Part shown: one piece after another, positions 446 through 33,403 of the stretch
How the letters are laid out: each line of letters begins with the position of its first letter
Numbering within the stretch: the first letter of the stretch is position 1
From: Empedobacter tilapiae
GTDB lineage: Bacteria; Bacteroidota; Bacteroidia; Flavobacteriales; Weeksellaceae
Assembly (NCBI RefSeq): GCF_004785645.1
Contig: NZ_SRPE01000019.1
Location: 1 to 33,403, forward strand
Direction: 5' to 3'
Length of the DNA stretch: 33,403 bases
Made by a program: the position numbers and the translations under genes
The notes under the pieces: model-generated
Seen by the model: the letters and a program-made list of their open reading frames with translations, nothing else
Told to the model about the DNA's origin: nothing
The model's database searches: none

Positions 446-1463
446 AATAAGGGTGGTTTATTTATTAAGTTTTACATTTATTCTTTTTTATTGCCACATT
501 GAGAGATTTTCGTTTCATAGAAAAAGAAAATTGTATCGAAATGTCCTTTTCTTTTCTGTCATTTCGAGGTATCAAAGAATATTTTGTCACTTTTTTTAGT
601 CAAAAAAACTAACGAAAAAAGACTTGGCTGTAAACCTCTCTACTAAAAATGTTCTCATTCCACTAAAGATTTTACAAACCCTACGGGCTAAAACCTTTTT
701 AACGCTCCATTTAACCATTTTCTTAACGTGAGAGTTTTAATGCCAGTTTATTCATCCTTTTTCAATATTCAAATTCGTTATCTCTTTCAAGAACGAATTC
801 CAAAACCGTCATTGCTGAAAAGTCGAGTGTCAATTCGGCGTAAGGAGCGTTAAAAATGATTTACTGTTCGCATTTTATATGCGAATGATTTAAAGCATTT
901 AGCGAATAGCCATTATTGACCGACTTGTAAGCATAGACTTGACTTTTTTGGTTCGTTTTTGTGTCAAGACAAAAATGAACATATAATTATTAATCAACTT
1001 GTAACAATTTTTACCTAAGCTCCACTGGAGCTTCTCCTTTTAATTTCAAATTCTTAATCTCAAATGTTTTTTCATCAAGGTTCCTCGTAGGGCATATGAA
1101 TTCATTTGAAATAATAATAACTCATGAATAAAAAATGAACAAATAATCATTTTCTTATTATCGTAATTATGTTCAGAACCTCATCTCGTTGTCATTCTGA
1201 ACTCATCTCAAAACCTCATCCTTAATCTGAATACATACTACTTTTTACATTTTACACTATACATCATAAATACTACATTTTACAATTCTAAAATCTCAAT
1301 ACTAATAGCTAACATCTACTATTAGAATCGAATAACCGTCTGTGCATTTCTTTATCCGAAACACATATTTTTAGAGAGAGTATTTTACTTGATTTGTAGA
1401 GGAATTAAACCAAGTATATCGTATGAAGTCCAATGCGATTGTTATGGAAGAAACGACCAAAAC
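446..1463. other. Gene-poor A+T-rich intergenic DNA
   Basis: About 1 kb with no credible coding region. It contains a perfect 7-bp hairpin (AAGCTCC, loop ACT, GGAGCTT) at 1017-1033, degenerate patches such as 'gtcatttcgagg' and 'gtcattctgaac' of the kind common between flavobacterial genes, and low-complexity TACATTTTA-like sequence around 1240-1320. I see no tRNA, rRNA or recognisable gene remnant. The promoter of the sigma gene at 445 must be in the lower end of this stretch but I could not pin it. Confidence 0.6.
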
Positions 1464-1637
1464 AAAAAAGGCGTGGAGCTCATCTTAAAGCATTAGAGGT
1501 ACTGGTATACCGCGCAACAACAAGAGAGCCCACGCCTAGGTCGTGAGCAAAACTACTTATTTTTTCTCGTTGCTACAAAAATTACCAGTTTTCTAATGCG
1601 AGATCAAAGTAATAAATACTTTTATTTTTTAACTATC
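1464..1637 (-). ncRNA. Candidate stand-alone structured RNA, class unknown
   Basis: On the minus strand a consensus-like -7 box TATATTTG (1644-1651) is followed by about 170 nt ending in CCACGCC plus six T (1464-1469), the layout of an independent small RNA with an intrinsic terminator. The sequence can fold into an interrupted rod: 1592-1599 with 1490-1497 (8 bp), 1583-1589 with 1501-1507 (7 bp), 1569-1573 with 1514-1518 (5 bp), 1565-1568 with 1524-1527 (4 bp), capped by CACG/CGTG at 1531-1545. A competing stem pairs 1526-1536 with 1470-1481 (7+4 bp, one bulge) and would form the terminator. The two folds cannot coexist except as a pseudoknot. Length and rod shape recall 6S RNA, but I cannot assign a family. 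The plus strand can form the same rod, so strand is inferred from promoter and terminator. Confidence 0.55.
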
Positions 1638-1718: not shown

Positions 1719-1940
1719 ATGAATGATAAAAATAGAAAAATAGTAGAGTTTATCAGGGACAATTGGTTATCTAAAGATCAAAGTAATTTGTCTTTTGCTA
1801 CTTCACATGGTATTGATGAAAAAACTGTAAGGTTAATTAAGGAAGATGAAAATTATAATATAAGCTTAAAAACAATTTTACGAATTTGCGAAGCTCGTGA
1901 GATTAAATTATATGATTTTTTCAAATTAGTAAACATATAA
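1719..1940 (+). CDS. Small XRE-like helix-turn-helix regulator
   Basis: A 73-residue protein made almost entirely of one DNA-binding domain. Residues 24-42 (SFATSHGIDEKTVRLIKED) fit a helix-turn-helix, followed by the helix typical of Cro/CI domains, ISLKTILRICEAREIKLYDFF, near the C-terminus. There is no second domain, so it is a minimal transcriptional regulator, possibly of mobile-element origin. The ATG at 1719 follows a hairpin with a T-run at 1667-1695. It stands alone, with no partner gene on either side. Target genes are unknown. The domain call is from sequence pattern only. Confidence 0.7.
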   Translation: MNDKNRKIVEFIRDNWLSKDQSNLSFATSHGIDEKTVRLIKEDENYNISLKTILRICEAREIKLYDFFKLVNI

Positions 1941-2960: not shown

Positions 2961-2966
2961 ATATCT

Positions 2967-3875: not shown

Positions 3876-3920
3876 TACTTTTAGCGTACCATTTGCTTCT
3901 TTTTGGTAGCTTAAACGTAC

Positions 3921-3982
3921 ACTCGCTTTGCTCGGGTCATTTCACGAAAAGCTTTATCAAAGCTTTTCACTCATGAATCAAA
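3921..3982. repeat. Small hairpin insertion in RHS core (copy 1)
   Basis: Compared with the intact RHS gene at 7321-7360, about 62 bp replace roughly 8 bp coding for Leu-Gly-Asn in the TDHLGNVRLSYQK segment. The insert has a CTCGCTTTGCTCG block and a perfect 10-bp stem (GAAAAGCTTT, loop ATC, AAAGCTTTTC) at 3946-3968. It brings an in-frame stop. An almost identical insert sits at the same codons of cassette 2. Confidence 0.75.
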
Positions 3983-4120
3983 ATGATCCGTGTAATTGTA
4001 CACATAGTTAATCTTATCTCCTCCGCGACAATCTGGCTCGTTCGCTAAAAATGTTTACAAAACATTTTTTAACACTCTACTCTCAAAGAACTTCTGTTGG
4101 TAAATTTAAGAAATTATACC
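3983..4120 (-). pseudogene. RHS core remnant of cassette 3
   Basis: Minus-strand fragments of the RHS core lie upstream of the HNH cassette: LNLPTEVL near 4100, then GDKI fused directly to NYVYNYTDHF. Compared with cassette 2 and with the intact gene, about 75 codons between GDKI and NYVYNYTDH are missing. A further insertion at 4022-4083 breaks the frame. The remnant is non-coding as it stands but keeps short blocks of homology to the expressed RHS gene. Confidence 0.7.
4022..4083. repeat. Second small hairpin insertion in cassette 3
   Basis: About 60 bp replace roughly 9 bp between the LPTEVL and GDKI codons. It has the same plan as the insert at 3921: a GC-richer block with GGCTCGTTCGCT, then a perfect 10-bp stem with a 3-nt loop (AAAAATGTTT, ACA, AAACATTTTT at 4047-4069). 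The stem sequence differs from that of the other inserts. Confidence 0.65.
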
Positions 4121-4130
4121 TTAAAAATGT

Positions 4131-4180
4131 AGCAACTTTATAAAATAACAAAAGGCAAACCATAGTTCGCCTTTTGTGTT
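4131..4180. terminator. Terminator-like hairpin after cassette 2 (copy B)
   Basis: Second copy of the CTTTATAAAATAACAAAAGG module, with an imperfect hairpin (AAAAGGC paired with GCCTTTT, inner part mismatched). It lies downstream, on the minus strand, of the Imm53-like gene and marks the end of cassette 2. Confidence 0.65.
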
Positions 4181-4228
4181 ATTGTGAATTATACGTTGTG
4201 TAATAATAACACGTTTGGAACAGTACCA

Positions 4229-4540
4229 TTAAAAATATTTTTTAAACTCCTTAGGATTATTAGTTTGATAATCTATGATTTCTTTTAAAACTTCTAATAA
4301 TATTTTAAAAGAAGTTGGATCACAAGATCCATTAAACTTACTATCTTTTATTTTAAATCCAATCCACTTAGAATTAAAATCTCCATATATAGACCAAGAA
4401 ATATCTGCTACAATATAATTGTTTATATCTACAGAAATATCCCATCCAGGGTTATCTAAAGTTTCTATTTTAATCCCATAATAATGCTCCCAATCTCCAT
4501 CACATTGAGATTCATACCAATTTTGTAGCCAATCAATCAT
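4229..4540 (-). CDS. Imm53-like immunity protein
   Basis: A 103-residue cytoplasmic protein. The opening IDWLQNWYESQCDGDWEHYY followed by GIKIETLDNPGW is the signature I associate with the Imm53 immunity family of polymorphic toxin systems. It begins one base after the stop of the Ntox24-like tip gene, so the two are translationally coupled. By context it protects against that toxin; direct binding is inferred. As with the toxin fragment, there is no obvious promoter of its own. Downstream on the minus strand lies a terminator-like hairpin shared by all three cassettes. Confidence 0.8.
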   Translation of the reverse strand: MIDWLQNWYESQCDGDWEHYYGIKIETLDNPGWDISVDINNYIVADISWSIYGDFNSKWIGFKIKDSKFNGSCDPTSFKILLEVLKEIIDYQTNNPKEFKKYF

Positions 4541-4541
4541 T

Positions 4542-5480
4542 TTAATTTAAATTTTTAGGCATATCCTCGCCTGGGATAGCAGGTCTAACATTACCTTTTT
4601 CTTGAACATGAGGAGTAGGAATACTTTCTCCGTTTTTATTTTTGTGAGAATTACCTTGGTAATCTACCCTTTTTTCTGTTTCGAATCCTTTTCCTTTCGA
4701 GTTTTTATTAGGGTTATTTTGGTTGACTCTATAAGTAGTATTTCCTCTTTCATTAATTACAGAATGATCACCTTCTGCTTCATCAGAAGCTGTTCTATTA
4801 TTACTTCCTCTACCTGTATTAGTCTTAGAGGATTCAGTGTTGATTGTCTCAGAAGCAGTATTTGAATCATTGTTAAATATTCGACCAATACTCTTTCCAA
4901 TTGATGTTACACCATCTACTATTCTATCCCATAAATTTCCTTTAGAAGAACTTGAAATTGTGGCTTCTTGTAATTGTATCGTTTGGTCTAAAGGAATACC
5001 TGTTGTAGAGATAGATGCACCAACAGTACCTGAAGCACTAGTTAATCCCGCACTTGTAGCTGTCATAGTCGTCGAAAAACTTGAACCAGCTGATGCGTAA
5101 TAACCTGTTTGAGCGGTACCAAGAGTTAATGTTGCTTCAGAATAAAATATTCCTAACATAGGACCTAGCTCTAAACCTTCTAATTCTCTACCAGAGCCTA
5201 ATTTATTTTCAGCAAAATTATAATGAGATTGATAAGCGTATTTTTCAGAAAGAGGATCTACATTGAAGAATCTCCCAATAGCAGGGTCATAATTTCTGTA
5301 TTTAAAAGAGTACCATCCTAAGCCAAGTTCGTCTTGTAACTCTTGCCCTTGGTATTTGTACTTATAGTTAGTATTTGCAAGATTAGTATTGTTGTATCCC
5401 TTATGCTTTAACCCAAACGGATAGTAATTGTTTTCTTCTAATACTTTTAGTGCACCATTACTTTCCTTTTGGTAGCTCAA
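4542..5480 (-). CDS. Displaced RHS tip cassette 2: core end plus Ntox24-like toxin
   Basis: The frame carries an RHS core end nearly identical to that of cassette 3 (NYYPFGLKH to AIGRFFNVDPLSEKY, then NFAENKLGSG), a Ser/Thr-rich linker, and a C-terminal domain of about 47 residues: FETEKRVDYQGNSHKNKNGE, then PTPHVQEKGNVRPA. This matches my knowledge of the polymorphic toxin type 24 domain, a predicted RNase; the His residues in GNSHKN and TPHV are the likely functional ones. The only start is a TTG at the LSYQK codons and there is no signal peptide, so it is probably not made as a separate protein. The reading frame of the core continues upstream but is cut by a 60-bp insertion. The Imm53-like gene follows directly. 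Confidence 0.75.
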   Translation of the reverse strand: MSYQKESNGALKVLEENNYYPFGLKHKGYNNTNLANTNYKYKYQGQELQDELGLGWYSFKYRNYDPAIGRFFNVDPLSEKYAYQSHYNFAENKLGSGRELEGLELGPMLGIFYSEATLTLGTAQTGYYASAGSSFSTTMTATSAGLTSASGTVGASISTTGIPLDQTIQLQEATISSSSKGNLWDRIVDGVTSIGKSIGRIFNNDSNTASETINTESSKTNTGRGSNNRTASDEAEGDHSVINERGNTTYRVNQNNPNKNSKGKGFETEKRVDYQGNSHKNKNGESIPTPHVQEKGNVRPAIPGEDMPKNLN

Positions 5481-5486
5481 TCGTAC

Positions 5487-5546
5487 ACTCGCTTCGCTCG
5501 GGTCATTTCATGAAAAGCTTTATCAAAGCTTTCATTCATGAATCAA
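5487..5546. repeat. Small hairpin insertion in RHS core (copy 2)
   Basis: Same location in the RHS core as the insertion at 3921-3982 and nearly the same sequence: CTCGCTTCGCTCG block, then GAAAAGCTTT, loop ATC, and a partner arm with one base lost, at 5512-5533. It separates the frames on either side with a stop shortly after TDHF. The shared insert shows that cassettes 2 and 3 derive from one inactivated ancestor. Confidence 0.75.
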
Positions 5547-5818
5547 AATGATCGGTGTAATTGTACACATAATTAAAAGCTGTACCACCTGTTACATTCA
5601 CATACCCTTCTGCTGTTGGAAAAAATTGTAAAACTGACTGATTTCCTTTTCCTGCTGCTTGAGAATACTGAAAACCATTCAAATAATAGGTCGTCTCAGC
5701 ATTTGATAACAGATTCTTCTGTACATACTTTGCTAATTTTACACCGCTAGCATCATACACATAACTAATCTTATCCCCATTTCCCCAAAGAACTTCCGTA
5801 GGTAAATTTAAGAAAATA
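5547..5818 (-). pseudogene. RHS core remnant of cassette 2
   Basis: A stretch of about 90 codons from FLNLPTEVLWGNGDKISY to YNYTDHF is nearly identical to the corresponding part of the intact RHS gene (LPTEVLWINGDKISY to YNYTDHL). Homology begins abruptly inside the gene, shortly after the terminator hairpin of the preceding module, so no upstream core or start is present. It is the longest homology arm (with the following frame about 400 bp) available for exchange with the expressed gene. Confidence 0.75.
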
Positions 5819-5842
5819 GTCCCGTTTACAGAATTTATAGAC

Positions 5843-5890
5843 TTCTTTATAAAATAACAAAAGGTAGACCTGAGCCTACCTTTTGTTTTA
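5843..5890. terminator. Terminator hairpin after the main RHS operon (copy C)
   Basis: 9-bp stem AAAAGGTAG / CTACCTTTT (5859-5884) with flanks CTTTATAAAATAAC shared with copies A and B. On the minus strand it follows the lipoprotein gene that ends at 5943 and so closes the main RHS operon before the displaced cassettes. Confidence 0.7.
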
Positions 5891-5942
5891 GCCTGAATGA
5901 TTAATATGTTGCAAGACAACAATATTTTTGCAATATTGTCCT

Positions 5943-6362
5943 TTATTCATAAACAATTTTATTTGAAAATTGATTTATTTGTATATCATTATTGCAACCA
6001 TCAATTACAAACCTTTTCCCTTTTGATAATGAAATTGTTTTTTTTTGAATTTTATTATTTTTCTCAATATATAATGAAATTTCTTTATCTAAATCTATCT
6101 TATTGCTATATAAGATATCCTTTTTGTTATAAACTTTTATGGTATTATCAGAGAAATAAATAACTCTTATTGGAGTTAAATCCAATTCATCATCTGTTTT
6201 AATAACTAAATTTTTAAATATTACTTGTTCATTTATATATAAAGAAACTTTATCTGAGTTGAAGCAACTTGCAAATCGAATCATAAATTTATTATCCATG
6301 TTATTGTTGACAGCACATGATGATAATATTAACAATATTATTATACTTAATTTATTAATCAT
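5943..6362 (-). CDS. Lipoprotein, likely immunity protein for the metzincin RHS tip
   Basis: A 139-residue protein with a lipoprotein signal: hydrophobic residues 5-13, lipobox LSSC with Cys16, then a polar VNNNMDNK linker. The rest is rich in beta-type segments and lysine, with two further Cys. No family recognised. It overlaps the end of the toxin gene by 8 bp, the usual place and coupling for an immunity gene. A periplasmic or membrane-anchored immunity protein would make sense if the peptidase tip attacks envelope proteins, which is inference. A terminator hairpin follows. Confidence 0.65.
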   Translation of the reverse strand: MINKLSIIILLILSSCAVNNNMDNKFMIRFASCFNSDKVSLYINEQVIFKNLVIKTDDELDLTPIRVIYFSDNTIKVYNKKDILYSNKIDLDKEISLYIEKNNKIQKKTISLSKGKRFVIDGCNNDIQINQFSNKIVYE

Positions 6363-9300
6363 CTGTTTTCTGTTTTCCTCTATTTAACTTCTTATTAGAA
6401 TATAAAGACTCAATCATTGTTAATTGCCACTTGGTTAGCTTATTTCCTTGATTTGAAGTCCCAAATTTATTTAGATCTCTCTGTTGATGCATAAGATTAC
6501 CTGAATAATCATTAGTTGAAAAGCTTTGAAAATGGTTTCCAATCTTTTTTATAGGTTTACCAAATGTACCAGATTGCATTTCATCTTTAATATGTTTTAA
6601 TCCTGCTGAGTGGAATGTTTCATGTGCCGCAGTGGTTCCATCGAAATTTTTATCTAAATAAATATAATTCTGTCCCCTTGCAGCAAAACCCATAACTTTT
6701 TCATCATCAGACAATTCTTCTCCTTTTAAACTTCCTATATCGTCAACAATTCTATAAACATGATCGTTACTAGCTATTTCAGACTCATCATTTGCCACTG
6801 TTATATCTGCTGTTATATTGATTCCAAATTTATCATCTTTAGAATCTCCTGAATATGTTATTTTTCCAACTAAGGAATTTACTATTCTTCCATTAATTCT
6901 TTGCATCTGTTTATCGGATAAACCTTTTGAAGTATTATCAATAACTTTTCCCTTGACTGAAATATTTATTCCATTAATATTTCCTTCTTCATCCCTATCC
7001 CATGCTATAATTATTTCTTTACCATTAGGGTCTGTATATAAAATAGGAGAGTTTAAAGCAAAAGAATATGGTGTTATCCCATAATACTTCTCCGCAAGCG
7101 GATCAATATTAAACCAACGACCTATTGTTGGATCGTAATTTCGTGCACCATAATCATACAAATTAATATTAAAATCGTCTTGCAATTCTTTCCCATTATA
7201 TTTGTACTTATAGTTAGTATTCGCAAGATTAGTATTGTTATATCCACTATGTTTTAATCCAAATGGATAATAGTTGTTTTCTTCTAATATTTTTAGTGTT
7301 CCATCAGTATTCTTCTGGTAGCTCAATCGGACATTACCCAAATGGTCGGTGTAATTGTAGACATAGTTAAACGCTGTTCCGTTTGTTACATTTACATAAC
7401 CTTCTGCTGTTGGAAAAAATTGTAAAACTGACTGATTTCCTTTTCCTGCTTCTTGAGAATATTGAAAACCATTCATATAATAGGTCGTCTCAACATTTGA
7501 TAGCAGATTCTTCTGTACATACTTTGCTAATTTTACACCGCTAGCATCATATGCATAGCTGATCTTATCCCCATTTATCCAAAGAACTTCCGTAGGTAAA
7601 CTTAAGGAATTATACGAAATCTTCGTAATTCCTTTGTTTAAATCTTGAATTAAATTTCCATTAGCATCATAGGCGTAATCGTTCCCCGAAGTATTTCCAT
7701 CTATAAAACCTACATCTTTGTACCCGGGATTATCCGTTACAGCCAGCAATTTATTTGAGTTCGCTTGATAGGTATAATTCGTATCATCTATCCAAACCAT
7801 ATTGTTAGAGATATCCTGCTCACCTGAACGAGTTATTCCAATAATATTCCCATTCTTATCGTACCCCTTGATAATTTCATTATAAGCATTAACTATCTGA
7901 TTAGCACCTTTGATATAAGTACCTTCTCTTAATCGATTAAGATTATCATATTGATAATTATAACTTCTGATGATATTGTCCGAGGCTTTCCAAATAGCTT
8001 CATTAATATTACCATTGTACAAAGGTTTGAATCTTTGAGGTTCCCATGTCAAACGAGTTACTTTATCATAATTTAAACGAAATGAAAACAAATCTTTATA
8101 CGTTCCTGTTTCCGTTACATCAATATTATTGATATCCGTTAACCATCCACGAATATTATACTTATAATCCACTTTTTGTAAAGGCGTAGACGAATTGGTG
8201 TTTCCTACTTTTTTCGAAGTCAATTGATTAATCTCGTTGTAAGAGTTCTGAACAATATATTCCTTTGGATTATTATTGATCTGATGAGTTTGATACTTCA
8301 ACAATTCATTGGGATAATAATCAAATTCTTCTTTTATTGTAATTTCATTACTTATGTATTCCGCTAACATATGTTTGGTTACGGTATTTTTAACTTTACC
8401 TCTAAAATCTAAAACAGAAGCTGTTGTTTGATAACCTCCTAAATAATTATCTAAATGTGAAGCTATAGGACGTATATATTTAGCATCATAATATGTATAG
8501 GATTTGTTCCACGTTGTTTCTCCCAAAACATTTATATAACTCGCTACAGCTAAACCTTTGGTTTTTGTATCATCAGCTCCAATTACATTTTGATTATCTA
8601 TAGACGAAGGTGTAACTCCTAAATTTTGATAATGATCGTAATAATTAACAGATTGAACTATTAAGCTTCCATTTGGAAATTGTGCATTGGTATAATAAAT
8701 ACTCTGTCCATTATTAGCAAATACAGACGATACTCTTTCCTCATTATTAGGAGTTTTTTTATTGTTCAACGCGGTTTGCATTGAACCTCGTGAGGCTGTA
8801 TTTTTAAAGAAACCTGAATACACCATTCGTCCAAACTTATCGTATTTAAAGAAAGTCCATCCTTTTTCAACCGCCGTTCGTTGATTGATATCTTGTTGTA
8901 AGGTTAAACGATCTTGGTTATCATACACCATAAACTCTCTTCCTTTGCCCGGAAGTTGTTTTTCTACTAATCTGTTTTTTTCATCATAAAAATACTGGTA
9001 GCCTAATTCAGCAAGATTATTTCTATAAGAAATTATATTTCCATGATCAGTATCAATTAATTTAGGAGGAAGAACAAAAGTTAAATTACCATAAATATCA
9101 TACACATAATATGTATCATGATTGCCAGAAGAATTTCCACTAATTGCGGGAATATTAATTCTTTTCAGAACGACTCTCCCTTCTTTATCTTTAAATTCTT
9201 GTATTGGTTGACCATTCTCATCTGTTGTCACAGTTTTATATAACACACCTTTTTGATAGGTGCTATTTAACGTTAAAGTTGGATTGGTAGTTGGATTGTC

Positions 9301-9804
9301 TACGCCAAATTTGTAAACTTCTCCATCTACATTCGTATCATAACCAAATCTTATTTCGTGTGCACCTTTTTTCCAAGAATTCCCTGGCGCAGCTTGTGCT
9401 ATTACTCGATTCAGTGGAGAGTTCTCAAACGTTTTCTCAGAGAATGGTGTTGTATCCCCTGTTAATGTAGAATAAAACGAATTTCCATTAGCTGAAGAAC
9501 TGACAATAGTGTTAGCTGCTGATGTTATTGGAAATGGTAAATATTCTTTGGCTTGACGTCCAAAACCATCATATTCAAATGGGGTTACAATCGTTTTTCC
9601 AGTAGGAGAACCGCCTACTTGTAGAATTTGTTTTTCGCGTCCTAAACCATCAAAATAAACAATTGTTTCTTTCTTCTTAGAACAATCTGTTTCTAAACAT
9701 TCAACTGTTTTAATGTAATTCTCTGTAGATGTTTGTGCATATACACTACCACCTCCTATAGTTAGAAGCGTACCGTATATAAAATTTTTATAAAAGTGTT
9801 TCAT
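6355..9804 (-). CDS. DUF6443 RHS-repeat toxin with metzincin-like peptidase tip
   Basis: 1149 residues. Residues 1-23 are a Sec signal ending VYAQ. A DUF6443-type domain (YFDGLGREKQILQVGG) precedes a long row of YD/RHS repeats such as YDKFGRMVYSGF and YDNLNRLREG, which build the cocoon that encloses the toxin. The core closes with RNYDPTIGRWFNIDPLAEKY and DPNG. The tip (about 928-1149) has HETFHSAGLKH at 1061-1071, a full HExxHxxGxxH zinc site, and GNLMHQ at about 1102-1107 as probable Met-turn, so the effector is a metzincin-like metallopeptidase. It is the only full-length RHS toxin here and the only copy not broken in the core. Its gene follows the SpvB-like gene by 11 bp and overlaps the lipoprotein gene. 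Export may depend on T9SS, since no T6SS genes are nearby; that is inference. Confidence 0.85.
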   Translation of the reverse strand: MKHFYKNFIYGTLLTIGGGSVYAQTSTENYIKTVECLETDCSKKKETIVYFDGLGREKQILQVGGSPTGKTIVTPFEYDGFGRQAKEYLPFPITSAANTIVSSSANGNSFYSTLTGDTTPFSEKTFENSPLNRVIAQAAPGNSWKKGAHEIRFGYDTNVDGEVYKFGVDNPTTNPTLTLNSTYQKGVLYKTVTTDENGQPIQEFKDKEGRVVLKRINIPAISGNSSGNHDTYYVYDIYGNLTFVLPPKLIDTDHGNIISYRNNLAELGYQYFYDEKNRLVEKQLPGKGREFMVYDNQDRLTLQQDINQRTAVEKGWTFFKYDKFGRMVYSGFFKNTASRGSMQTALNNKKTPNNEERVSSVFANNGQSIYYTNAQFPNGSLIVQSVNYYDHYQNLGVTPSSIDNQNVIGADDTKTKGLAVASYINVLGETTWNKSYTYYDAKYIRPIASHLDNYLGGYQTTASVLDFRGKVKNTVTKHMLAEYISNEITIKEEFDYYPNELLKYQTHQINNNPKEYIVQNSYNEINQLTSKKVGNTNSSTPLQKVDYKYNIRGWLTDINNIDVTETGTYKDLFSFRLNYDKVTRLTWEPQRFKPLYNGNINEAIWKASDNIIRSYNYQYDNLNRLREGTYIKGANQIVNAYNEIIKGYDKNGNIIGITRSGEQDISNNMVWIDDTNYTYQANSNKLLAVTDNPGYKDVGFIDGNTSGNDYAYDANGNLIQDLNKGITKISYNSLSLPTEVLWINGDKISYAYDASGVKLAKYVQKNLLSNVETTYYMNGFQYSQEAGKGNQSVLQFFPTAEGYVNVTNGTAFNYVYNYTDHLGNVRLSYQKNTDGTLKILEENNYYPFGLKHSGYNNTNLANTNYKYKYNGKELQDDFNINLYDYGARNYDPTIGRWFNIDPLAEKYYGITPYSFALNSPILYTDPNGKEIIIAWDRDEEGNINGINISVKGKVIDNTSKGLSDKQMQRINGRIVNSLVGKITYSGDSKDDKFGINITADITVANDESEIASNDHVYRIVDDIGSLKGEELSDDEKVMGFAARGQNYIYLDKNFDGTTAAHETFHSAGLKHIKDEMQSGTFGKPIKKIGNHFQSFSTNDYSGNLMHQQRDLNKFGTSNQGNKLTKWQLTMIESLYSNKKLNRGKQKTDD

Positions 9805-9815
9805 TTCGCTTGAGC

Positions 9816-12800
9816 TTAAGGTTGTTTGTAGTTGTACTGGAATGTTTTTAAAACCTCTTGTTTATCATTTCTGATATCTTGCAAACGATTAGCAGCATCA
9901 TAGTTGTAATATTCTGTCTGTCCATTTGGTCCTGTAATACTTGTTACACCAACAAGTGGTTTGTACGTATAGGTTGTTATCATCGCATCAGGAATTAATG
10001 TTCGAATAGTCGATTGTTCAGCAGCAGTCAAGGTTCCGCTTTGTATTTTAGTTAGATAATTTGCTAATTTACTTGTAGCATTTGCAAACGTTGAACCTTC
10101 AATCTTAGCTACTGGATATTGACCATTGTATCCCCAAATAATAGAAACTTGAATACCGTTTTCTGGAGTATATTGTGTTAGATTACCTTTTTCATCATAG
10201 CTGTCGTAAGTGATTTTGCGGTTATTATTTCCGTCAAATACATTTGATCCTTTTTTTTGATGTATAGCTAACTTTTGGATAATTCCGTTGAATAGATTAT
10301 ACTGATTATGAACTTCTGAAATATATACTCCATCAACACTTTGTTTCACAATGACTGGTTCTGCAATACGATTAGCATCTGTCAACTCTTTCATATAATA
10401 TTCTTGCCCTACCAAATCTGGTGGATATTGATATTCTGTCGTTAGGGTTTCGCCTTTACTATTTTGAGTGGTTTTAGAATTTAGATAAAAATAATTTGGT
10501 TTATTTGAATAAATATTTGAGGTATTTTCTTCAACATAAGATGAATTATTGAAATATTTTTTATTGTTTACACTAATGTTTTCAATAGAAGCAGAATTAA
10601 TCCAATTCATGGTCTTTTTTATGAAATATGTTTTATCATCAGGTAAAGGAGAATATTGTAAAGATTTTGGAGCAATATCTAGGTTAACGCTAAAAGAAAC
10701 AGCAGTTTTTTGGGCATTCATTCCTGTATTAAAAGTAGTTAAATCATTTCTTAATTCATTAAAATTATACTTAAAATTAGATTCTTCTAATAGGTTAGAT
10801 TTTTCATCTTTTATTTTTTTATTTAATAAAAGACCATCTTTCCAATCGCTATAGTCGCTATTAATAAGAGAAAAAACATTAGATAAATTATAATAATTAT
10901 TAAGACTGAATTCATATTCAGTACTTCCTCCTTTTGAATATTCAATAACATAAGGATAGGCAATACCTTTAGAAGAACCATAGACGTTTGCTGATTGGTT
11001 ACTATTATGTATTGTTATGATTTCTTCTATATCAAAACTTTCTTGTTGGTCAAAATAAAGTTTATCTTTAAATTTAGGGGCTATATTCAAATAAAGAATC
11101 GGTTTATCTAAATAAGCAAAGGGTTTAAATTCATCATCTTCATATTTACCATATTTAAACTCTCTTTTGTTTTCTAATGTAGAATTAGCATTATAATCTG
11201 AGATACTTTTGATTCTTAATCCAGGATAGGTAGGAATCGTGCTAAACATAATCATGTACTTATACTTTAATTTTAAAGGAATAGAACAACGACATGGTTC
11301 AGGACTGGTATCTAATAGTTGTACACCACCTTCAAATAGTCTAGTTAGATCACCATATATTGTTCCCATTTTGGGAGGACCATCAAAACCGTCTATTCTT
11401 TTTCCTTGACTATTTAGGTATCCAAAACACATTGTTTCTTGAATATGATTAGGAGTTGTATCATTATTCTTACAAGTATTATCAAAATTATACTCTATAT
11501 ATGGTTCAGCATCTGGTGCTAATTTAGATATTTCGATCAAATCTTGGTATGTAAACTGAAGTGTTCCTTCGGAATAACCTTCGCTGTTGAATTCAAGTGT
11601 TTTATAGGTACGGTGTCCATAATATCCTGATGCAGTTTTCGTTTCTTCTCCTATGGGGTTTTCGTACTTAAATACTTTATATCCTCCAGTAGGATAGGTT
11701 ATTTTAGATAAACTTCCTATTTGAGTGTATATAGAATTAGGACTTCGATCACGTTTATTATTAATTCGGACAAAATCATCTTGGTTATATTGAATACCAT
11801 AGTTTATAGTTAAAGGTATATTGGACTTTCCTGTATTATTTAAGCTATTGATATACCCCCAATGATCATCATTAAAAGAATTCCTTCTAGGAAATTGATA
11901 GGTTTCATTGTATTCAAATTTATGATATGTGTTGTCAAGATTATTATATACATTGACAAGTTTTAAACGGTAATCTTCTGGTGTTTTTGGGGTATTATTA
12001 TTTGAAAAATATTCATAATTGAAAGTATATTCTTTAATAATCTTTAATTGTTTATCTTTAACAATAATCTTTCTTAAAGCTATACCTAAACCATCTATAT
12101 CGATACGATTAGGATTTCCATTTATATATAAACTTGGTGTATCATTGGAATAAGTGAAAAAAATATCTTCAGTTTCAGTTTCTATTTTAGAAATTAATTT
12201 TTCTGTGTTTGCAGTATTTTTTTCTTCACATTCATAAGGAATACGAAGTTGTTCTCGCTGATTAATCTGTTGAATTTTACGTAAATGAGCTTTTTCATAA
12301 ACAAGTAAGTCATTATATCCAAAATCCTTATTATAAAAGAAATTTATTTTTTTATTATTAGGAGTAATGATTTCAGTTACTTTAAATAAATTTCCCTCTG
12401 CGGAATTATCAGTAAATACAATATTCTTCTTGGCAAATAAATATTTATTACCAGCTGAATCTGTAATATCTATAGTATTGTCAGGATTAAATACTATCTG
12501 ATCATTATTATAAGGGATAGGGATGCCTTTTTTATCATCTTTTATAAAGCTACCAGATGAAGTAGGTAGATTATAGGAAAACAAATCGGGTTTGGTGTCA
12601 TATATTCCTTCTAATATTTCTCCTACTTTCACTCTTAATCCTGAATTCTCTGCTATAGGAGCTAAGCCTCCATTTAGAGCGTCATAATCATTGAAATCTT
12701 TTGAATAGAGAGGAGTTTTAAAATCATTTTGTCCTTTTATATCTTGGTTAATAGAACCAGTTATATTTAAAGACCAACCTAATCCTACACTACTAGCTAC

Positions 12801-13052
12801 TTCATTTAATTTAATTCCTGATGTGTTATAAGATAGGTTAATAGGAATATTTACTCCATCGATATTGATTGAATGAATAGGAATAGAAATATTTGCTTGT
12901 CCTCTAAAATAGTCAACTTCAAGATCAGTTATTTTAGAAAGAGCATAAGCATCAGGAGTAGTAGGTATAGGTATTATATTAGTATCTTGACCATAATTTT
13001 TAATCCCAACTAAAAAAGCTAACAAAGCAAGTAGCACTACATTTTTCTTCAT
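9816..13052 (-). CDS. SpvB/TcB-like RHS-family protein, companion of the RHS toxin
   Basis: 1078 residues with a signal peptide (KNVVLLALLAFLVGIKNYGQ). The N-terminal third resembles the opening of SpvB/TcdB-type and large Bacteroidota RHS-associated proteins: PDAYALSKITDLEVDYFRGQ, then ISIPIHSINIDG and SYNTSGIKLNEVASSVGLGW. The C-terminus carries RHS/YD repeats (YNYDAANRLQDIRNDKQE) and stops without a toxin tip. Insecticidal Tc B and C components also split the shell between two chains, so this protein may form part of the shell around the downstream DUF6443 protein. It starts 2 bp after the propeller gene and ends 11 bp before the RHS toxin, in one operon. Confidence 0.8.
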   Translation of the reverse strand: MKKNVVLLALLAFLVGIKNYGQDTNIIPIPTTPDAYALSKITDLEVDYFRGQANISIPIHSINIDGVNIPINLSYNTSGIKLNEVASSVGLGWSLNITGSINQDIKGQNDFKTPLYSKDFNDYDALNGGLAPIAENSGLRVKVGEILEGIYDTKPDLFSYNLPTSSGSFIKDDKKGIPIPYNNDQIVFNPDNTIDITDSAGNKYLFAKKNIVFTDNSAEGNLFKVTEIITPNNKKINFFYNKDFGYNDLLVYEKAHLRKIQQINQREQLRIPYECEEKNTANTEKLISKIETETEDIFFTYSNDTPSLYINGNPNRIDIDGLGIALRKIIVKDKQLKIIKEYTFNYEYFSNNNTPKTPEDYRLKLVNVYNNLDNTYHKFEYNETYQFPRRNSFNDDHWGYINSLNNTGKSNIPLTINYGIQYNQDDFVRINNKRDRSPNSIYTQIGSLSKITYPTGGYKVFKYENPIGEETKTASGYYGHRTYKTLEFNSEGYSEGTLQFTYQDLIEISKLAPDAEPYIEYNFDNTCKNNDTTPNHIQETMCFGYLNSQGKRIDGFDGPPKMGTIYGDLTRLFEGGVQLLDTSPEPCRCSIPLKLKYKYMIMFSTIPTYPGLRIKSISDYNANSTLENKREFKYGKYEDDEFKPFAYLDKPILYLNIAPKFKDKLYFDQQESFDIEEIITIHNSNQSANVYGSSKGIAYPYVIEYSKGGSTEYEFSLNNYYNLSNVFSLINSDYSDWKDGLLLNKKIKDEKSNLLEESNFKYNFNELRNDLTTFNTGMNAQKTAVSFSVNLDIAPKSLQYSPLPDDKTYFIKKTMNWINSASIENISVNNKKYFNNSSYVEENTSNIYSNKPNYFYLNSKTTQNSKGETLTTEYQYPPDLVGQEYYMKELTDANRIAEPVIVKQSVDGVYISEVHNQYNLFNGIIQKLAIHQKKGSNVFDGNNNRKITYDSYDEKGNLTQYTPENGIQVSIIWGYNGQYPVAKIEGSTFANATSKLANYLTKIQSGTLTAAEQSTIRTLIPDAMITTYTYKPLVGVTSITGPNGQTEYYNYDAANRLQDIRNDKQEVLKTFQYNYKQP

Positions 13053-25774: not shown

Positions 25775-25879
25775 CGAGACGATTTCTATTTTTCGTCTAC
25801 ACATTGATTTCAATTAATTTAAAATTGAAGTCAACACTTTTCTGTGCTCATTTATTTTGATAATAAGTGGGTAATGTTA

Positions 25880-28800
25880 ATGCAATTAATCAAATTATCT
25901 GTGTTAGATAAAATCATAAAATTTAGTATCCAAAACAAGATTGTTATTGGAATTATGACTGGTTTATGGATTATCTGGGGCGTATGGAGTGCAACAAAAT
26001 TGCCAATAGATGCGGTACCAGATATTACCAATAATCAAGTCCAAATTATTACGGTCAGCCCTACTCTAGCTGGTCAAGAAGTAGAACAATTGGTCACTTT
26101 TCCAATTGAACAAAGTATTGCAAATATTCCTGATATCGAAGAAACAAGAAGTATTTCTCGTTTTGGTTTATCTGTGATTACAGTAGTGTTTAAAGAAGAT
26201 GTTGACATTTATTTTGCACGTCAATTAGTCAACGAAAAATTAAAAGAAGCACAAGAAGACATTCCGCAAGGTGTTGGTATTCCCGAATTATCACCTGTGA
26301 GTACCGGTCTTGGAGAAGTCTATCAATATATTTTACATCCTAAAAAAGGAAGTGAGAAAAAATACAATTCAAAACAATTGCGCGAAATGCAAGATTGGAT
26401 TGTTCGGAGACAATTAAACGGAACTCCTGGTGTTGCTGAGATCAATAGTTTTGGTGGAGAATTAAAGGAATACGAAGTTGCTTTAGATCCGAATAGATTA
26501 CGCGCAATGGGGATTAGTGTATCGGATATTTTTGATGCCTTAGAAAAAAATAATCAAAACACTGGAGGAGCCTACATCGATAAGAAGCCAAATGCTTACT
26601 TCATTCGAGGAATTGGAATGGTAACTTCTCTGGATGATGTAAAATTAATTCCTATAAAAAATGCGACGGGAACTGTTCCTATTTTTATAAAAGATGTAGC
26701 TGATGTAAGACTAGGACATGCCATACGATACGGAGCGATGACCTACAATGGTGAAGTAGATGCTGTTGGAGGTGTTGTAATGATGTTAAAAGGAGCCAAT
26801 TCTAACGAAGTGGTTAACCTAATTAAAGAAAAAATACCTACAATTCAAAAATCACTACCAGACGATATCGTCATCGAGCCTTTCCTTGATCGAACGAATT
26901 TAGTCAATCGTGCAATTAAAACAGTAGAAAAAAATCTAATCGAAGGTGCATTAATTGTCATCTTTGTATTGGTTATTTTTCTTGGTAATCTAAGAGCTGG
27001 TTTAATCGTTGCTTCAGCAATTCCTCTATCCTTATTATTTGCATTAGGAATGATGAATGTTTTTGGTGTAAGTGCGAATTTAATGAGTTTAGGAGCTATT
27101 GATTTTGGATTGATAGTTGATGGAGCAGTTATTATTGTAGAAGCGACTTTACATCATCTTGGACTTAGAAAATCAACGCATCAATTAACCCAAAAAGAAA
27201 TGGATGAAGAGGTTTTTCTTTCAGCTTCAAAAATTAGAAATTCAGCCGCTTTCGGGGAAATTATCATACTTATTGTCTACATTCCTATTCTTACATTGGT
27301 TGGTGTAGAAGGAAAAATGTTTACACCAATGGCTAAAACAGTTGGTTTTGCAATTCTAGGAGCATTAATTCTTTCGTTAACGTACATCCCAATGATGAGT
27401 GCTTTATTTTTATCAAAAAAGCCTACTCTCAAACCTTCTTTTTCAGATAAAATGATGGTGAAAATCCATAAAGTTTATGAACCATTATTAGAAAAAGCAA
27501 TCCGAATCAAATATTGGTTAGTTGGTATTACTGTTGCAATTTTTGCAGTATCAATTATTCAATTCAGAAATATGGGTGGCGAATTTATTCCGCAATTACA
27601 AGAAGGTGATTTTGCTTTTCACTGTATTTTACCACAAGGAAGTTCCTTAACTCAAAGTTTAGAAACATCCATGCAAGCTTCTCGAATTTTAAAAGAATTT
27701 GATGAGGTGAAAATGGTCGTTGGTAAAACAGGATCTGCTGAGGTTCCCACAGATCCTATGCCTCCTGAAGCAACAGATATGATTATCGTTCTAAAACCAA
27801 AGGACGAATGGAAAAGAAAAATTTCTTATGAAGAATTAGGTGATGAAATGATGGAGAAACTAGAGGTTATTCCTGGTGTTTTCTTTGAAAAAAATCAACC
27901 AATCCAAATGCGTTTTAATGAATTGATGACAGGAATTCGACAAGATGTAGCTGTCAAAATTTTTGGCGAAAATTTAGATTCTCTCTCTTATTATGCAGAT
28001 AAAACCTCAAAAGCAATTCAATCTGTTGAAGGTGTTACAGCACCCCAAGTAGAACGCGTAAGTGGTTTGCCTCAGATTAATGTTGAATATGACCGAATCC
28101 GAATGGCAAATTACGGATTAAATATTCAAGATGTAAATGATATGTTGAGTACAGCATTTGCTGGAAAAACAGCTGGACAAGTTTTCGAGAATGAACGACG
28201 CTTTGATTTGGTTGTTCGATTGGATAGTGTGCATCGAAAAAGCATTGATGACATTAACAATTTAATGATTCCTACAAGTTCTGGTAATCAAATTCCAATC
28301 TCTCAGGTGGCAAATGTGAGTTATAAATTAGGCGCTTCTCAAATTAGTCGCGAAGAAGGAAAACGAAGAATTGTAATTGGTTTCAACGTAAAAGATCGCG
28401 ACGTACAATCAGTTGTAAAAGATATTCAGACAAAATTAGACAACGAAATCAAATTGCCTTCAGGCTATTATTTCACCTATGGAGGACAGTTCGAAAATCT
28501 ACAAGCAGCTAGTCAACGTTTGATGATTGCAGTACCAATCTCCTTGTTGTTAATTTTTATGTTATTGTATTTCACATTTCATTCATTCAAACAAGCTGCA
28601 TTAATTTTTACAGCAATTCCAATGAGTGCAATCGGAGGTATTTTTGCATTAATTATTCGCGACATGCCATTTAGTATTAGTGCTGGAATCGGTTTTATTG
28701 CTTTGTTCGGAGTAGCTGTTTTAAACGGAATTGTTTTAATTGGAACATTCAATCAATTAGAAAAAGAAGGAGAGAAAAACATTTTAAAACGAATAATGGA

Positions 28801-30262
28801 AGGAACCAATATCCGATTACGACCAGTATTAATGACAGCAACAGTTGCATCGTTAGGATTTTTACCGATGGCAATTTCCACAGGCGCAGGTGCCGAGGTT
28901 CAAAAACCTTTAGCAACAGTTGTCATTGGAGGATTAATCACAGCTACTTTTTTAACCTTATTTGTATTACCAATGTTATATTTAATATTCAATTCAAAAC
29001 TTCCAAAAATAAAATTGAACTCAAAAAATACACTTCCATTCCTTGTATTCGGAATGTTTTTGATGGGACAATCTATTCAAGCGCAAACTCGTTCAATTAA
29101 TATTCAAGAAGCTCAACAAATTGCAATTGAAAATAATCCATTAATCAAAGCAAATGAACGAAGTATCTCATCAAGTGAAGCTTTAAAAGGAACCGAAAAT
29201 GAATTACCAAAATTAAATGTGGAAGCACAACTTGGGCAATATGCGAGTCCAAAATTCGATTATGGTTTATCTATTTCTCAAAGTATTCCATTTCCAACGA
29301 TTTTTAAACATCGAAAGGCAGTTTTAGAATCAGAAGTGAATAGCAAGAAGATACAAAAAGAAGTAACAACAAACGAATTGTTGAAACAAGTGAGAACCTA
29401 TTTCTATCAGATCGAATATTTAGAATATAACCATGATCAACTCGAACAATTAAATAAACTTTATTTAGAATTTATTCGAATTGCTTCGGTTCGATTTAAT
29501 GCAGGTGATATTAAGAAAATCGAAATTAATACGGCAGAAACTCAACAAGGAGAAATCAACCTACTGTTGAAACAAAACAAAGTGTATTTAGCAAATGCTT
29601 ATAAAAATCTAAACGTATTATTGAATACCGAAGAAAGTTTTACAATTACCAAAGAGACGAATTATATTCCATTAAAATTGAGTGGAATTTTAGACGGTTC
29701 TACAATTGATAGTAATCCTACTCTCAAAGCTTTTTACCAACAGATGGAAATTACAGAACGAAACAAAGAAGTCGTAAAAGCCGAAGGTTTACCAGAATTT
29801 TCACTTGGTATAAACAGTTTATCGATGATTGGAATGCAAGAAAAAAATGGAGTTGAAAGGTATTACAATGGCCTTGATCGTTTTACTTCAGTAAACCTTA
29901 GTGTAGCAATTCCATTAACGTTTGGTGCTACAAAAGCAAAAATAAAAGCATTGGAATATGATAAACAAGCCATTCAAGAAACAGCCAATTTTCAAAAACA
30001 ACAGCTAAAGATTCAATTGGATAATTCAATTAATCAATATCAGCAAGATTGGGAACAATATGAATATTATGTAAACCAAGCCATTCCAAATGCAGAGAAA
30101 ATTGTAAAAGCAGCTCAATTGGGTTACAAAACTGGTGAAATTTCCTATGTCGAATATCTTTTTGCATTGCAAACCGCAACGGATATTCAATTAAAATATC
30201 TTGAATCGATACAACAAGTCAATCAAACTATTGTCAATATTAATTCTATCATCAATCAATAA
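25880..30262 (+). CDS. CzcA-type heavy-metal RND pump fused to a TolC-like outer-membrane factor
   Basis: 1460 residues from the ATG at 25880 (ATGs at 25844 and 25874 are alternatives). Residues 1 to about 1040 are a complete HME-RND pump: first membrane helix, porter domains (LPIDAVPDITNNQVQI), GAIDFGLIVDGAVIIVE with Asp408, Asp414 and Glu421 for proton and ion coupling, and the second six-helix bundle ending FVLPMLYLIFN. DFG..VDGA fits the divalent-cation CzcA type better than CusA. After a short linker comes a second signal-like segment (LPFLVFGMFLMGQSIQAQ) and then about 390 residues of outer-membrane factor (INIQEAQQIAIENNPLIKAN and long coiled helices). Fusions like this are known in flavobacteria. 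The adaptor gene starts 1 bp after the stop. Confidence 0.88.
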   Translation: MQLIKLSVLDKIIKFSIQNKIVIGIMTGLWIIWGVWSATKLPIDAVPDITNNQVQIITVSPTLAGQEVEQLVTFPIEQSIANIPDIEETRSISRFGLSVITVVFKEDVDIYFARQLVNEKLKEAQEDIPQGVGIPELSPVSTGLGEVYQYILHPKKGSEKKYNSKQLREMQDWIVRRQLNGTPGVAEINSFGGELKEYEVALDPNRLRAMGISVSDIFDALEKNNQNTGGAYIDKKPNAYFIRGIGMVTSLDDVKLIPIKNATGTVPIFIKDVADVRLGHAIRYGAMTYNGEVDAVGGVVMMLKGANSNEVVNLIKEKIPTIQKSLPDDIVIEPFLDRTNLVNRAIKTVEKNLIEGALIVIFVLVIFLGNLRAGLIVASAIPLSLLFALGMMNVFGVSANLMSLGAIDFGLIVDGAVIIVEATLHHLGLRKSTHQLTQKEMDEEVFLSASKIRNSAAFGEIIILIVYIPILTLVGVEGKMFTPMAKTVGFAILGALILSLTYIPMMSALFLSKKPTLKPSFSDKMMVKIHKVYEPLLEKAIRIKYWLVGITVAIFAVSIIQFRNMGGEFIPQLQEGDFAFHCILPQGSSLTQSLETSMQASRILKEFDEVKMVVGKTGSAEVPTDPMPPEATDMIIVLKPKDEWKRKISYEELGDEMMEKLEVIPGVFFEKNQPIQMRFNELMTGIRQDVAVKIFGENLDSLSYYADKTSKAIQSVEGVTAPQVERVSGLPQINVEYDRIRMANYGLNIQDVNDMLSTAFAGKTAGQVFENERRFDLVVRLDSVHRKSIDDINNLMIPTSSGNQIPISQVANVSYKLGASQISREEGKRRIVIGFNVKDRDVQSVVKDIQTKLDNEIKLPSGYYFTYGGQFENLQAASQRLMIAVPISLLLIFMLLYFTFHSFKQAALIFTAIPMSAIGGIFALIIRDMPFSISAGIGFIALFGVAVLNGIVLIGTFNQLEKEGEKNILKRIMEGTNIRLRPVLMTATVASLGFLPMAISTGAGAEVQKPLATVVIGGLITATFLTLFVLPMLYLIFNSKLPKIKLNSKNTLPFLVFGMFLMGQSIQAQTRSINIQEAQQIAIENNPLIKANERSISSSEALKGTENELPKLNVEAQLGQYASPKFDYGLSISQSIPFPTIFKHRKAVLESEVNSKKIQKEVTTNELLKQVRTYFYQIEYLEYNHDQLEQLNKLYLEFIRIASVRFNAGDIKKIEINTAETQQGEINLLLKQNKVYLANAYKNLNVLLNTEESFTITKETNYIPLKLSGILDGSTIDSNPTLKAFYQQMEITERNKEVVKAEGLPEFSLGINSLSMIGMQEKNGVERYYNGLDRFTSVNLSVAIPLTFGATKAKIKALEYDKQAIQETANFQKQQLKIQLDNSINQYQQDWEQYEYYVNQAIPNAEKIVKAAQLGYKTGEISYVEYLFALQTATDIQLKYLESIQQVNQTIVNINSIINQ

Positions 30263-32062: not shown

Positions 32063-33163
32063 TTATGCTATAATAAGCTCTATTCCTGCTTTATTAGCTT
32101 TATATTTTATTTTAGTCATCAATTCATAATAACTCCAATTTCTCAGTACAAATTCTTCTTCTTTGGCTATTTCCATCTTTTCTTCTTGATCCAATAAAAT
32201 AAGCGTTCCTGCTTTATTATTGATGCAAAAATCAATTAGCATTTTACTATAGACATGTAATCGATGATGGACGTAACTTCGTTCCACTTGACTCATTTTT
32301 TCTAAAGCTTTTACTTTTCTTGTTCTTCCTTTGCCCGATTTTGCATAGGTTACTCCTGTTTGTATTCGTTTACGGGACGCTTGTATTGCTAATCTACGGT
32401 AAAGAAACTCTTCTTTGGTTCCGATGGTAAGCCGAGACTTACCAATTTTTACAACCAACGGATATTCTAAGGATAAGGATGCTTCTGCAATAATTTCGGG
32501 TTGTAGATGATGGTTTTCTTTTTTGATCTCAACAACAGCTAACCAAAATATTTTTCCTTTTTCGATTTTTATTTGTGAGGTACAAAGTTTAATTTCACCA
32601 CTTACCACTTGTTCCAATAACCTTTTATTGCCTGTAAAATCTTTTCCTAAATAAGTTTTGAATGGAAGTTGAAACAACCGAAAACAGAAACTTTTTTTCT
32701 CGGAGGAATAAGATAATCCACTTATACCATCTAGTCCAAAAGGAAATGCCATATCTCGTTTGAAGTTTTTTAACGAAGCTTCTCCTTTCCAATATTTTTG
32801 GTAATCTTGGTTGTAAGAACTGTAGAGTCTGTTATTCAAAATAGTTAATATGTTCATCGGTATTTCTCCTTTAAATCGTTTTGAGAGCATACGATAAGTG
32901 GTACTCATACGCGAACATTCTAGTATACCTTCTTGCTGTTTCTTTTCATCCACTAATTTGTATTTAACTCCCTCCGAGAGATATAAAAAATCTTTCGCCA
33001 TCTCTTGTATGTATAAATGAGAAACGATCAAATTAGCTGCTCTAAAACACCTATTTCGCCATCTGTAAAGCGTATCCAAAACCTCTTTACGTTCTTCTTG
33101 AGTTGGTAAATCAACGATTAATCGTATTTTTCGAGTGAGTATTAAAGTAGATTTTTCCATCAT
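32063..33163 (-). CDS. Nuclease-dead, C-terminally truncated Cas12f/TnpB homologue (dCas12f)
   Basis: 366 residues from the ATG at 33161-33163. The N-terminal half has the Cas12f/TnpB recognition and wedge pattern (LYRWRNRCFRAAN, MNILTILNNRLYSSYNQDY, SLKNFKRDMAFPF, KIFWLAVVEI). The RuvC half follows the family order, but where RuvC-I should read GVDLG it reads LVVKIGKSRL, without Asp. The RuvC-II position (normally xxEDL) is LILLDQEEK. FVLRNWSYYELMTKIKYKAN KAGIEL is the family's conserved helix, after which the protein stops at IIA; the zinc-finger and RuvC-III Asp are missing. It should therefore bind guide RNA and DNA without cutting. Its start overlaps the stop of the sigma-like gene as TGATG, so the two are coupled. 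Recruitment of sigma/RNA polymerase to guide-matched DNA is the likely role. Confidence 0.85.
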   Translation of the reverse strand: MMEKSTLILTRKIRLIVDLPTQEERKEVLDTLYRWRNRCFRAANLIVSHLYIQEMAKDFLYLSEGVKYKLVDEKKQQEGILECSRMSTTYRMLSKRFKGEIPMNILTILNNRLYSSYNQDYQKYWKGEASLKNFKRDMAFPFGLDGISGLSYSSEKKSFCFRLFQLPFKTYLGKDFTGNKRLLEQVVSGEIKLCTSQIKIEKGKIFWLAVVEIKKENHHLQPEIIAEASLSLEYPLVVKIGKSRLTIGTKEEFLYRRLAIQASRKRIQTGVTYAKSGKGRTRKVKALEKMSQVERSYVHHRLHVYSKMLIDFCINNKAGTLILLDQEEKMEIAKEEEFVLRNWSYYELMTKIKYKANKAGIELIIA

Positions 33164-33403
33164 CAATAGTTTAGGGATTGAGCTTTATTTTGTTGAGTGA
33201 ATTTATAAGCGACTATAAATTCATTGTGTACTTCTTTCTGAGAAAGTTCTAATGTCTTAGCAATGGTTGTAAACGATTGTTTTCCCTCACATCGAAGTTT
33301 TAAAATCAGCGATTGTCTTTCGTTTATTTGATCTTTTTTTTCTGTAAAAGAAACTGTTTTGCTTCTAGTCAACTTATCTTGGTGATTTAAAATCTTCTTA
33401 AGA
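33163..33403 (-). CDS. Sigma factor, C-terminal region 4 (5' part beyond right edge)
   Basis: The frame is open from the window edge, and the first 10 visible codons (LKKILNHQDK) precede the TTG that might be taken as a start, so the gene continues outside. The visible 79 residues contain INERQSLILKLRCEGKQSFT then TIAKTLELSQKEVHNEFIVA, the two helices of sigma region 4.2 (compare the usual ER..IL.LR..G.....IA..L..S...V). Together with its overlap with the dCas12f gene this makes an ECF sigma partner the best reading; another HTH regulator cannot be excluded from 79 residues. A Lys-rich stretch at the start of the visible part (LTRSKTVSFTEKKDQ) is the linker between regions 2 and 4. Confidence 0.7.
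   Translation of the reverse strand, partial: LKKILNHQDKLTRSKTVSFTEKKDQINERQSLILKLRCEGKQSFTTIAKTLELSQKEVHNEFIVAYKFTQQNKAQSLNY

Follow-up and report, generated by a model that had tools for sequence, protein, structure and literature searches.

A probable RNA-guided sigma factor system of Empedobacter tilapiae and a structured leader RNA matched by guides of its relatives

The right end of contig NZ_SRPE01000019.1 of Empedobacter tilapiae carries a gene for a Cas12f-type protein whose start overlaps the end of a putative sigma factor gene, which raises the question whether the two form an RNA-guided sigma system and where on the genome such a system would be directed. The stretch analysed (the window, 33,403 nucleotides) makes up the entire contig C11 of a genome assembled into 27 contigs (3.71 Mb). 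Its relevant features are:

32063..33166, minus strand: dCas12f gene, its frame of 367 residues counted from a TTG, with translation probably starting at an ATG at 33163 or 33160
33163..33402, minus strand: ECF sigma gene, 3′ part (79 codons up to the contig end)
2..445, minus strand: ECF sigma gene, 5′ part (148 codons up to the contig end)
31981..32051, minus strand: guide-RNA scaffold with a GAGGGTG hairpin, a GGTGAG..CTCAC hairpin and the end ATATACTAA
31965..31980, minus strand: predicted 16-nt guide GAGTGTAGCGTATAAT, its boundary drawn by analogy with other units
1446..1615, minus strand: structured leader with switch/terminator, ~1 kb upstream of a sigma fragment; 152.5 bits, being itself among the sequences used to build the model
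1520..1535, minus strand: leader stretch similar to guides of the GCGTGGGCTC class in relatives, preceded by a 5′ G; a 14-nt pattern match, its 16-nt extent taken from the guide/leader test in relatives
1719..1940, plus strand: small divergent gene, XRE/HTH-like by eye, its product without an NCBIfam match

The kinship of the Cas12f-type protein was assigned by phmmer against the Cas12f/TnpB chains of the PDB. The top match is the chain named “Nuclease-deactivated Cas12f” in 9n9q (581 bits over 364 residues), one solved sequence deposited in four entries, and active Cas12f/TnpB chains score at most 156 bits. A Pfam search with the window protein gave no match, and the NCBIfam TnpB model reached 54.3, below its cut-off of 100. 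Window residues 86-364 align with residues 126-416 of the active protein 9nzr, but, unlike the active chains (9nzr, 9nzo, 8hr5), the window protein has its RuvC-I Asp replaced and is devoid of the RuvC-III and zinc-finger end; the catalytic residues of an active type V-F CRISPR nuclease are thus not found, and nuclease activity would not be expected from the sequence. The first-pass annotation had called the protein nuclease-dead and placed LVVKIGKS at the position of the lost Asp. The loss stands, but the register does not: LVVKIGKS sits just downstream, and the counterpart of GVDLGINIPL in the active chains is EASLSLEYPL, with Ser in place of Asp.

The zinc-finger/RuvC-III end is indeed absent, as had been proposed, but this is not peculiar to the window copy. 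The missing RuvC-I Asp and the short C-terminal end are common to 18 aligned sequences, with a stop at most one residue after the short C-terminus in 18 of 18, at most 8 residues after it in 79 of 80 related loci and at most 17 in the remaining one. The solved dCas12f has 365 residues and the sister copies on contigs C1 and C26 of the same genome have 367, as the window copy does. Because the stop follows in all 18 aligned sequences, in the 80 related loci and in the solved protein, the short C-terminus is a family trait, and so is the length of ~365-367 residues. A sequencing frameshift, which had been named as a way for the proposal to fail, is contradicted by the equal length of the C1 and C26 copies; the window frame is intact and aligns over its full length with 17 relatives. 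The protein is a Cas12f homologue of ~365 residues that has lost RuvC, as in the dCas12f-sigmaE family.

Its partner is seen only in part in the window, where the 3′ fragment matches sigma region 4 weakly (18.9 bits, cut-off 24.1). The gene is complete in three other copies of the same genome, and one of these (L009 6039-6818, minus strand, 259 residues) matches Pfam Sigma70_r2 with 26.1 against a cut-off of 24 and NCBIfam sigma70-ECF with 63 against 42.9. Over its 79 residues the 3′ part in the window shares 98.7% identity with the C1 copy, the two window fragments being 97 and 99% identical to the C1 sigma; it was on this C1 sigma that orthology to the solved “RpoE” of 9n9q was tested (290 bits). 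At the right end of the window, the dCas12f ATG and the sigma TGA have one base in common (TGATG), so the overlap described in the first-pass annotation is confirmed, and the complete ECF copies show that the upstream gene is a sigma factor, contrary to the other refuting condition named there. An ECF sigma gene thus lies directly upstream of dCas12f and overlaps it, both proteins being orthologous by sequence to those of the solved dCas12f-sigma complex; for this reason it is very likely that an RNA-guided sigma system was correctly proposed. The sister copies, the guide-RNA unit and the leader described below were not part of that proposal.

The protein pair itself is of a known type. The solved chains (9n9c, 9n9m, 9n9o, 9n9q) are letter-identical to both proteins of a locus of Allomuricauda (Flagellimonas) taeanensis (L159), whose dCas12f is 69% identical to that of the window and resembles it in length and RuvC loss; gene order, scaffold and a structured leader upstream of sigma are also as in Empedobacter, with sigma factors of 261 and 259 residues, respectively. 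The Empedobacter genome differs in its several dCas12f copies and in its guide; that of A. taeanensis, TTGTGGGATATACGCT, fits its own leader poorly, with 4 of 14 mismatches at best.

Complete sigma-dCas12f pairs are found on C1 and C26, and the pair on C14 has a dCas12f with an internal stop. C4 holds a remnant (L012 238-474), an in-frame dCas12f of 21 N-terminal and 57 C-terminal residues that has kept scaffold and guide and lies upstream of a gene resembling, by eye, a catalase-peroxidase. The sigma gene is also interrupted by contig ends: C11-left and C26-right hold two 5′ halves with the same last codon, C11-right and C4 two 3′ halves with the same first codon, and a leader is present at both 5′ halves. 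The 5′ half joining the window dCas12f would be either that of C11-left or that of C26-right, and the C11-left half would join either the other window end or C4; the order expected is C26, C11 reversed, C4. The window copy probably lies behind a structured leader and is itself a target.

The guide-RNA scaffold lies 3′ of dCas12f, as in the dCas12f-sigmaE family, and is present at all five copies of this genome, which has six scaffold units; that of the window is intact. It is kept across genera, mostly ending in ATACAAC, beyond which the copies diverge; the edge at the window guide is ATACTAA. The sixth unit, the second on C26 (L010, C26:54087-54148), stands alone with no protein gene of its own and is almost letter-identical in two loci of another genome of the genus (L024 and L036, both G002). 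A guide-tail-like repeat, AGCAGGATACTCCCAACAT.., was also seen at L072 7787 (minus strand; C26:47787), the preceding 200 bases being without scaffold.

A search of 99 genomes gave matches in 13, the own genome counted. In the genome collection, a query with the single protein returned no relative, and an alignment query returned 213, from which 80 loci were kept. The scaffold was recognised by script in 72 of these 80, and the commonest class of guide, with 34 units among these 72 loci, starts with GCGTGGGCTC. Another class, around CCTTCCCYWAAAGATTAA and partly in tandem units, was seen in Salegentibacter, Leeuwenhoekiella and Gramella (L198, L202, L203, L206, L209, L211, L212, L215, L217). 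Carriage of the system by mobile elements was considered and is not general: of the 80 loci, 15 have a relative of the A. taeanensis integrase and 10 its relaxase, A. taeanensis counted; the idea of plasmid or phage carriage was also dropped, the only matches being remote TnpB-like ones of 23-27% identity.

Where the guides point was examined in the own genome. For the window guide, nothing credible was found with 20 nt at up to 3 mismatches; with 16 nt at up to 2, the guide itself apart, the 2 matches both lie in coding frames. The guide common to C1 and C4 matched two guide units only (up to 3 of 22), and the search with the C14 guide covered the stretches fetched. The first clue to a target came from the resemblance of own-genome guides to an intergenic element, the leader: allowing one mismatch, GCGTGGGYTCWCTT occurs at five places in the genome (in a guide, at three elements and in an open frame) against none for its reversed control, and RGCTYACTTATC has three (the C26a guide, the C2 element and one coding frame) against 1 for its reversed control. 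Guide C26a has 12 exact nucleotides at the C2 leader, counted from the scaffold edge and after a G, and guide C26b has 3 mismatches in 16 at the C1 leader. The fit between sibling guides of the own genome and leaders is only partial.

Guides of a second Empedobacter clade gave a less clear picture. Sites upstream of SusC that match their GGGGGATTTTT pattern were attractive at first and are at most candidates for a second class of target: at up to one mismatch there are 6-10 matches per genome, guides included, against 1-4 for the reversed pattern, most of those inspected fall in coding frames, and in E. stercoris (L186), beyond its guide, sites of this class occur only at 3 mismatches. Guides of the form AAAGGGGGATTTTTTAG were noted in L028, L029, L038, L039, L045, L186 and L197, and several operons of the own genome have G-rich sites similar to them in the stretch from leader to SusC.

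The correspondence between guide and leader could be tested across the 80 related loci. By script the element was found in 37 loci, a scaffold in 73 and the two together in 34, and the best guide differs from the leader of its own locus at no more than 3 of 14 positions in 15 of these 34; 14 are credible, the match of L216 being discounted as AT-rich and at another spot. With shuffled guides (200 rounds) the mean was 0.225 and the maximum 2 matching loci. A further locus whose element was missed by the script, L160, has a one-mismatch site in its leader. Position by position, guide and leader agree in 11-15 of 15 loci at offsets 0-15, in 0-1 at −1 to −3 and in 3-6 at +16 to +20; the match thus extends over 16 nt from the edge of the scaffold. 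The agreement at offset −4 (12 of 15) is due to the two flanks being constant at that position. The base before the target is G in 14 of 15, which does not count as independent evidence because the leader is invariant at this base. A candidate target next to a 5′ G is seen in 14 credible relatives of 34, and the window guide has none within the mismatches searched. In the 22 loci that have a leader and another kind of guide, the own guide matches only in L187 (and in the discounted L216); L196 has a GCGTGGG-like guide, yet with 5 of 14 mismatches to its own leader.

The leader fold was computed from 37 sequences, 28 of them from the 40 loci with strong matches. It comprises 31 pairs, with 97.8% of the cells paired, 14 of the 31 pairs showing changes on both sides and 126 double-change cells against a mean of 34 in shuffles. 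In an alternative pairing the guide-matched strand joins a downstream arm followed by T's (99.3% of cells, double changes in 4 of 11 pairs), as in a terminator. The two structures are mutually exclusive because one strand is common to both, and it is the sequence of this bistable strand that the guide repeats. In having two incompatible folds, one of which is a terminator-like stem followed by a T-run, the leader resembles attenuators and riboswitches; it differs from the curated riboswitch families in that the Rfam search gave nothing near a gathering score.

The covariance model finds strong leader matches in 40 of the 80 loci, all on the operon strand and upstream of dCas12f, and weak ones in two more (L178 and L175). 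From target to sigma start the distance is 148-237 bp in 30 of the 38 loci measured (of 40) and 537-3559 bp in the other 8; in Empedobacter some 0.9-2.8 kb separate the leader from the gene. A promoter-like TATATTTG box was seen by eye upstream of the target.

In Empedobacter the leader is found at a second kind of operon. Six strong leaders were located in the stretches fetched from the own genome, three with SusC/SusD next (C2, C6, C25) and three before sigma (on C1 and at two contig ends, C11-left and C26-right). Ten SusC loci of this genome score above the cut-off (C1 only with its neighbour); one, at C12:6602, has a weak leader match (E 0.002), and in six no leader was found in the upstream stretches fetched. 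In four other genomes of the genus (G002, G003, G010, G013), six of the 16 non-own target-pattern matches are leader-like and were fetched, two before SusC and four before sigma-dCas12f; the remaining ten comprise four guides and six more sites, the three inspected lying in long open frames. Of 12 strong genus leaders examined, 9 being sequences of the model itself, 5 have SusC downstream and 7 have sigma. At one G010 locus picked for another motif (L237) the SusC is 96% identical to the C6 protein, and no leader was found. SusCD as the usual neighbour of the system was rejected, a SusC query having matched 1 of the 80 loci, and the link comes from the genus Empedobacter only. Upstream of sigma or SusC in C2, C6, C12, C25, C26, C14, C10 and C11 the sequence is a mosaic of repeats, the C1 sigma region having 73 matches genome-wide, itself counted.

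Taken with the membership of the pair in the dCas12f-sigmaE family, these observations make it probable, in our judgement, that guides direct transcription to start beyond a target in the leader, so that the operon would be expressed whatever the leader senses. A guide RNA would be made from the unit directly downstream of the gene and bound by dCas12f, an R-loop would form at the ~16-nt match beside the 5′ G, and the complex would bring sigma factor and RNA polymerase, with transcription starting beyond the R-loop. A 5′ G beside the target and a start beyond the R-loop are the reported rules of the known system, and details of the wiring may already be in print. Against the proposed wiring stand the window guide, for which no credible target was found, the imperfect match of its siblings and the many loci in which either a leader or a matching guide was not found. 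The commonest guide would be aimed at the structured leader before sigma-dCas12f operons and, in Empedobacter, before some SusC/SusD operons as well, its target being the switching strand of an RNA that folds into either stacked helices or a terminator. Since the matched strand is the 5′ arm of the terminator, a start downstream of it, given the reported direction of initiation, would yield a transcript that skips the terminator and leave the operon on whatever the leader senses. The likely wiring is the new part, and it opens the question of what dCas12f-sigmaE systems regulate in nature: the 16-nt guide shared across genera predicts that RNA-guided initiation skips a terminator and closes a positive loop or a cascade.

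The same sequence match would be expected if the guides of this dCas12f-sigmaE system acted on the leader RNA: identical in sequence to the bistable strand, a guide could pair with the 3′ arm of the terminator or with the 5′ arms of the fold and so tip the switch in trans. Such an action would leave the paired sigma factor without a role, several guide classes mismatch their own leader, and the guides of the known system are reportedly directed at DNA; we consider it very unlikely. Repression by a dead nuclease of this kind has a precedent in TldR, described (PMC13418256) as a nuclease-dead TnpB that serves as an RNA-guided repressor; the window protein resembles it as a nuclease-dead TnpB/Cas12 relative and probable RNA-guided regulator. 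The window gene differs from it in being overlapped by a sigma gene and does not stand alone. TldR is not known to have a sigma partner. With the target downstream of the promoter-like box, bound dCas12f could block the elongating polymerase at the leader, the sigma factor being merely co-transcribed; against this, the two frames overlap, both chains are present in the solved entry 9n9q, and 30 of 38 leaders lie at the short distance from the sigma start given above, and we consider repression as the main role very unlikely as well.

A different doubt concerns the window copy, which could be a decaying duplicate without function. Its sisters on C14 and C4 are visibly decaying, its guide found no target and the edge of that guide deviates from ATACAAC; its frame and scaffold are nevertheless intact, the frame aligning with relatives from end to end, and decay seems unlikely to us, if somewhat less so than the two foregoing alternatives.

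The distribution of guides and leaders among the loci suggests a further step. Among loci with GCGTGGG-like guides, 25 have no leader found in at least 1.5 kb of upstream sequence and 15 have one, whereas with other guides 22 have a leader and 8 have none; three loci whose upstream sequence is short and seven in which no scaffold was recognised are omitted. Fisher's test gives p 0.004, and p 0.0006 if two borderline guides are put in the other class, phylogeny not being controlled for. Matches at up to 3 of 14 between a leader and the guide of another locus occur in four of the nine genomes that have a leader and guides from another locus (S. flavus 1, Sinomicrobium N-1-3-6 1, Salegentibacter R32 1, A. 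abyssi 3), and none was found at this threshold in Galbibacter, S. agarivorans, L. blandensis, P. baculatum and E. stercoris. In the own genome, the C26 pair has leader-like guides and no strong leader (best 16.9 bits), and C1 and the sigma halves at contig ends have leaders, with guides of other kinds at C1 and in the window; this suggests a cascade with the window copy in its second tier. We put forward tentatively, and with more doubt than confidence, that Flavobacteriia and their relatives have a layered network, in which a first tier with GCGTGGGCTC guides bypasses the leader switch of SusCD operons, of itself and of second-tier systems such as that of the window, which would act elsewhere with different guides, the leader forming a new class of RNA switch. 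If such a network exists, RNA-guided initiation is a natural override of an RNA attenuator.

Two other regions of the window were noted in passing. RHS-type proteins, recognised by eye, with orphan C-terminal modules occupy 2517-13052 (minus strand) near the leader, and sequence similar to this region occurs on C1 and at the end of C26. A 1472-residue frame at 25844-30262 (plus strand) combines a CusA/CzcA RND pump (1194 bits) with an outer-membrane-factor-like C-terminal part that the NodT/IhpA models match below cut-off.
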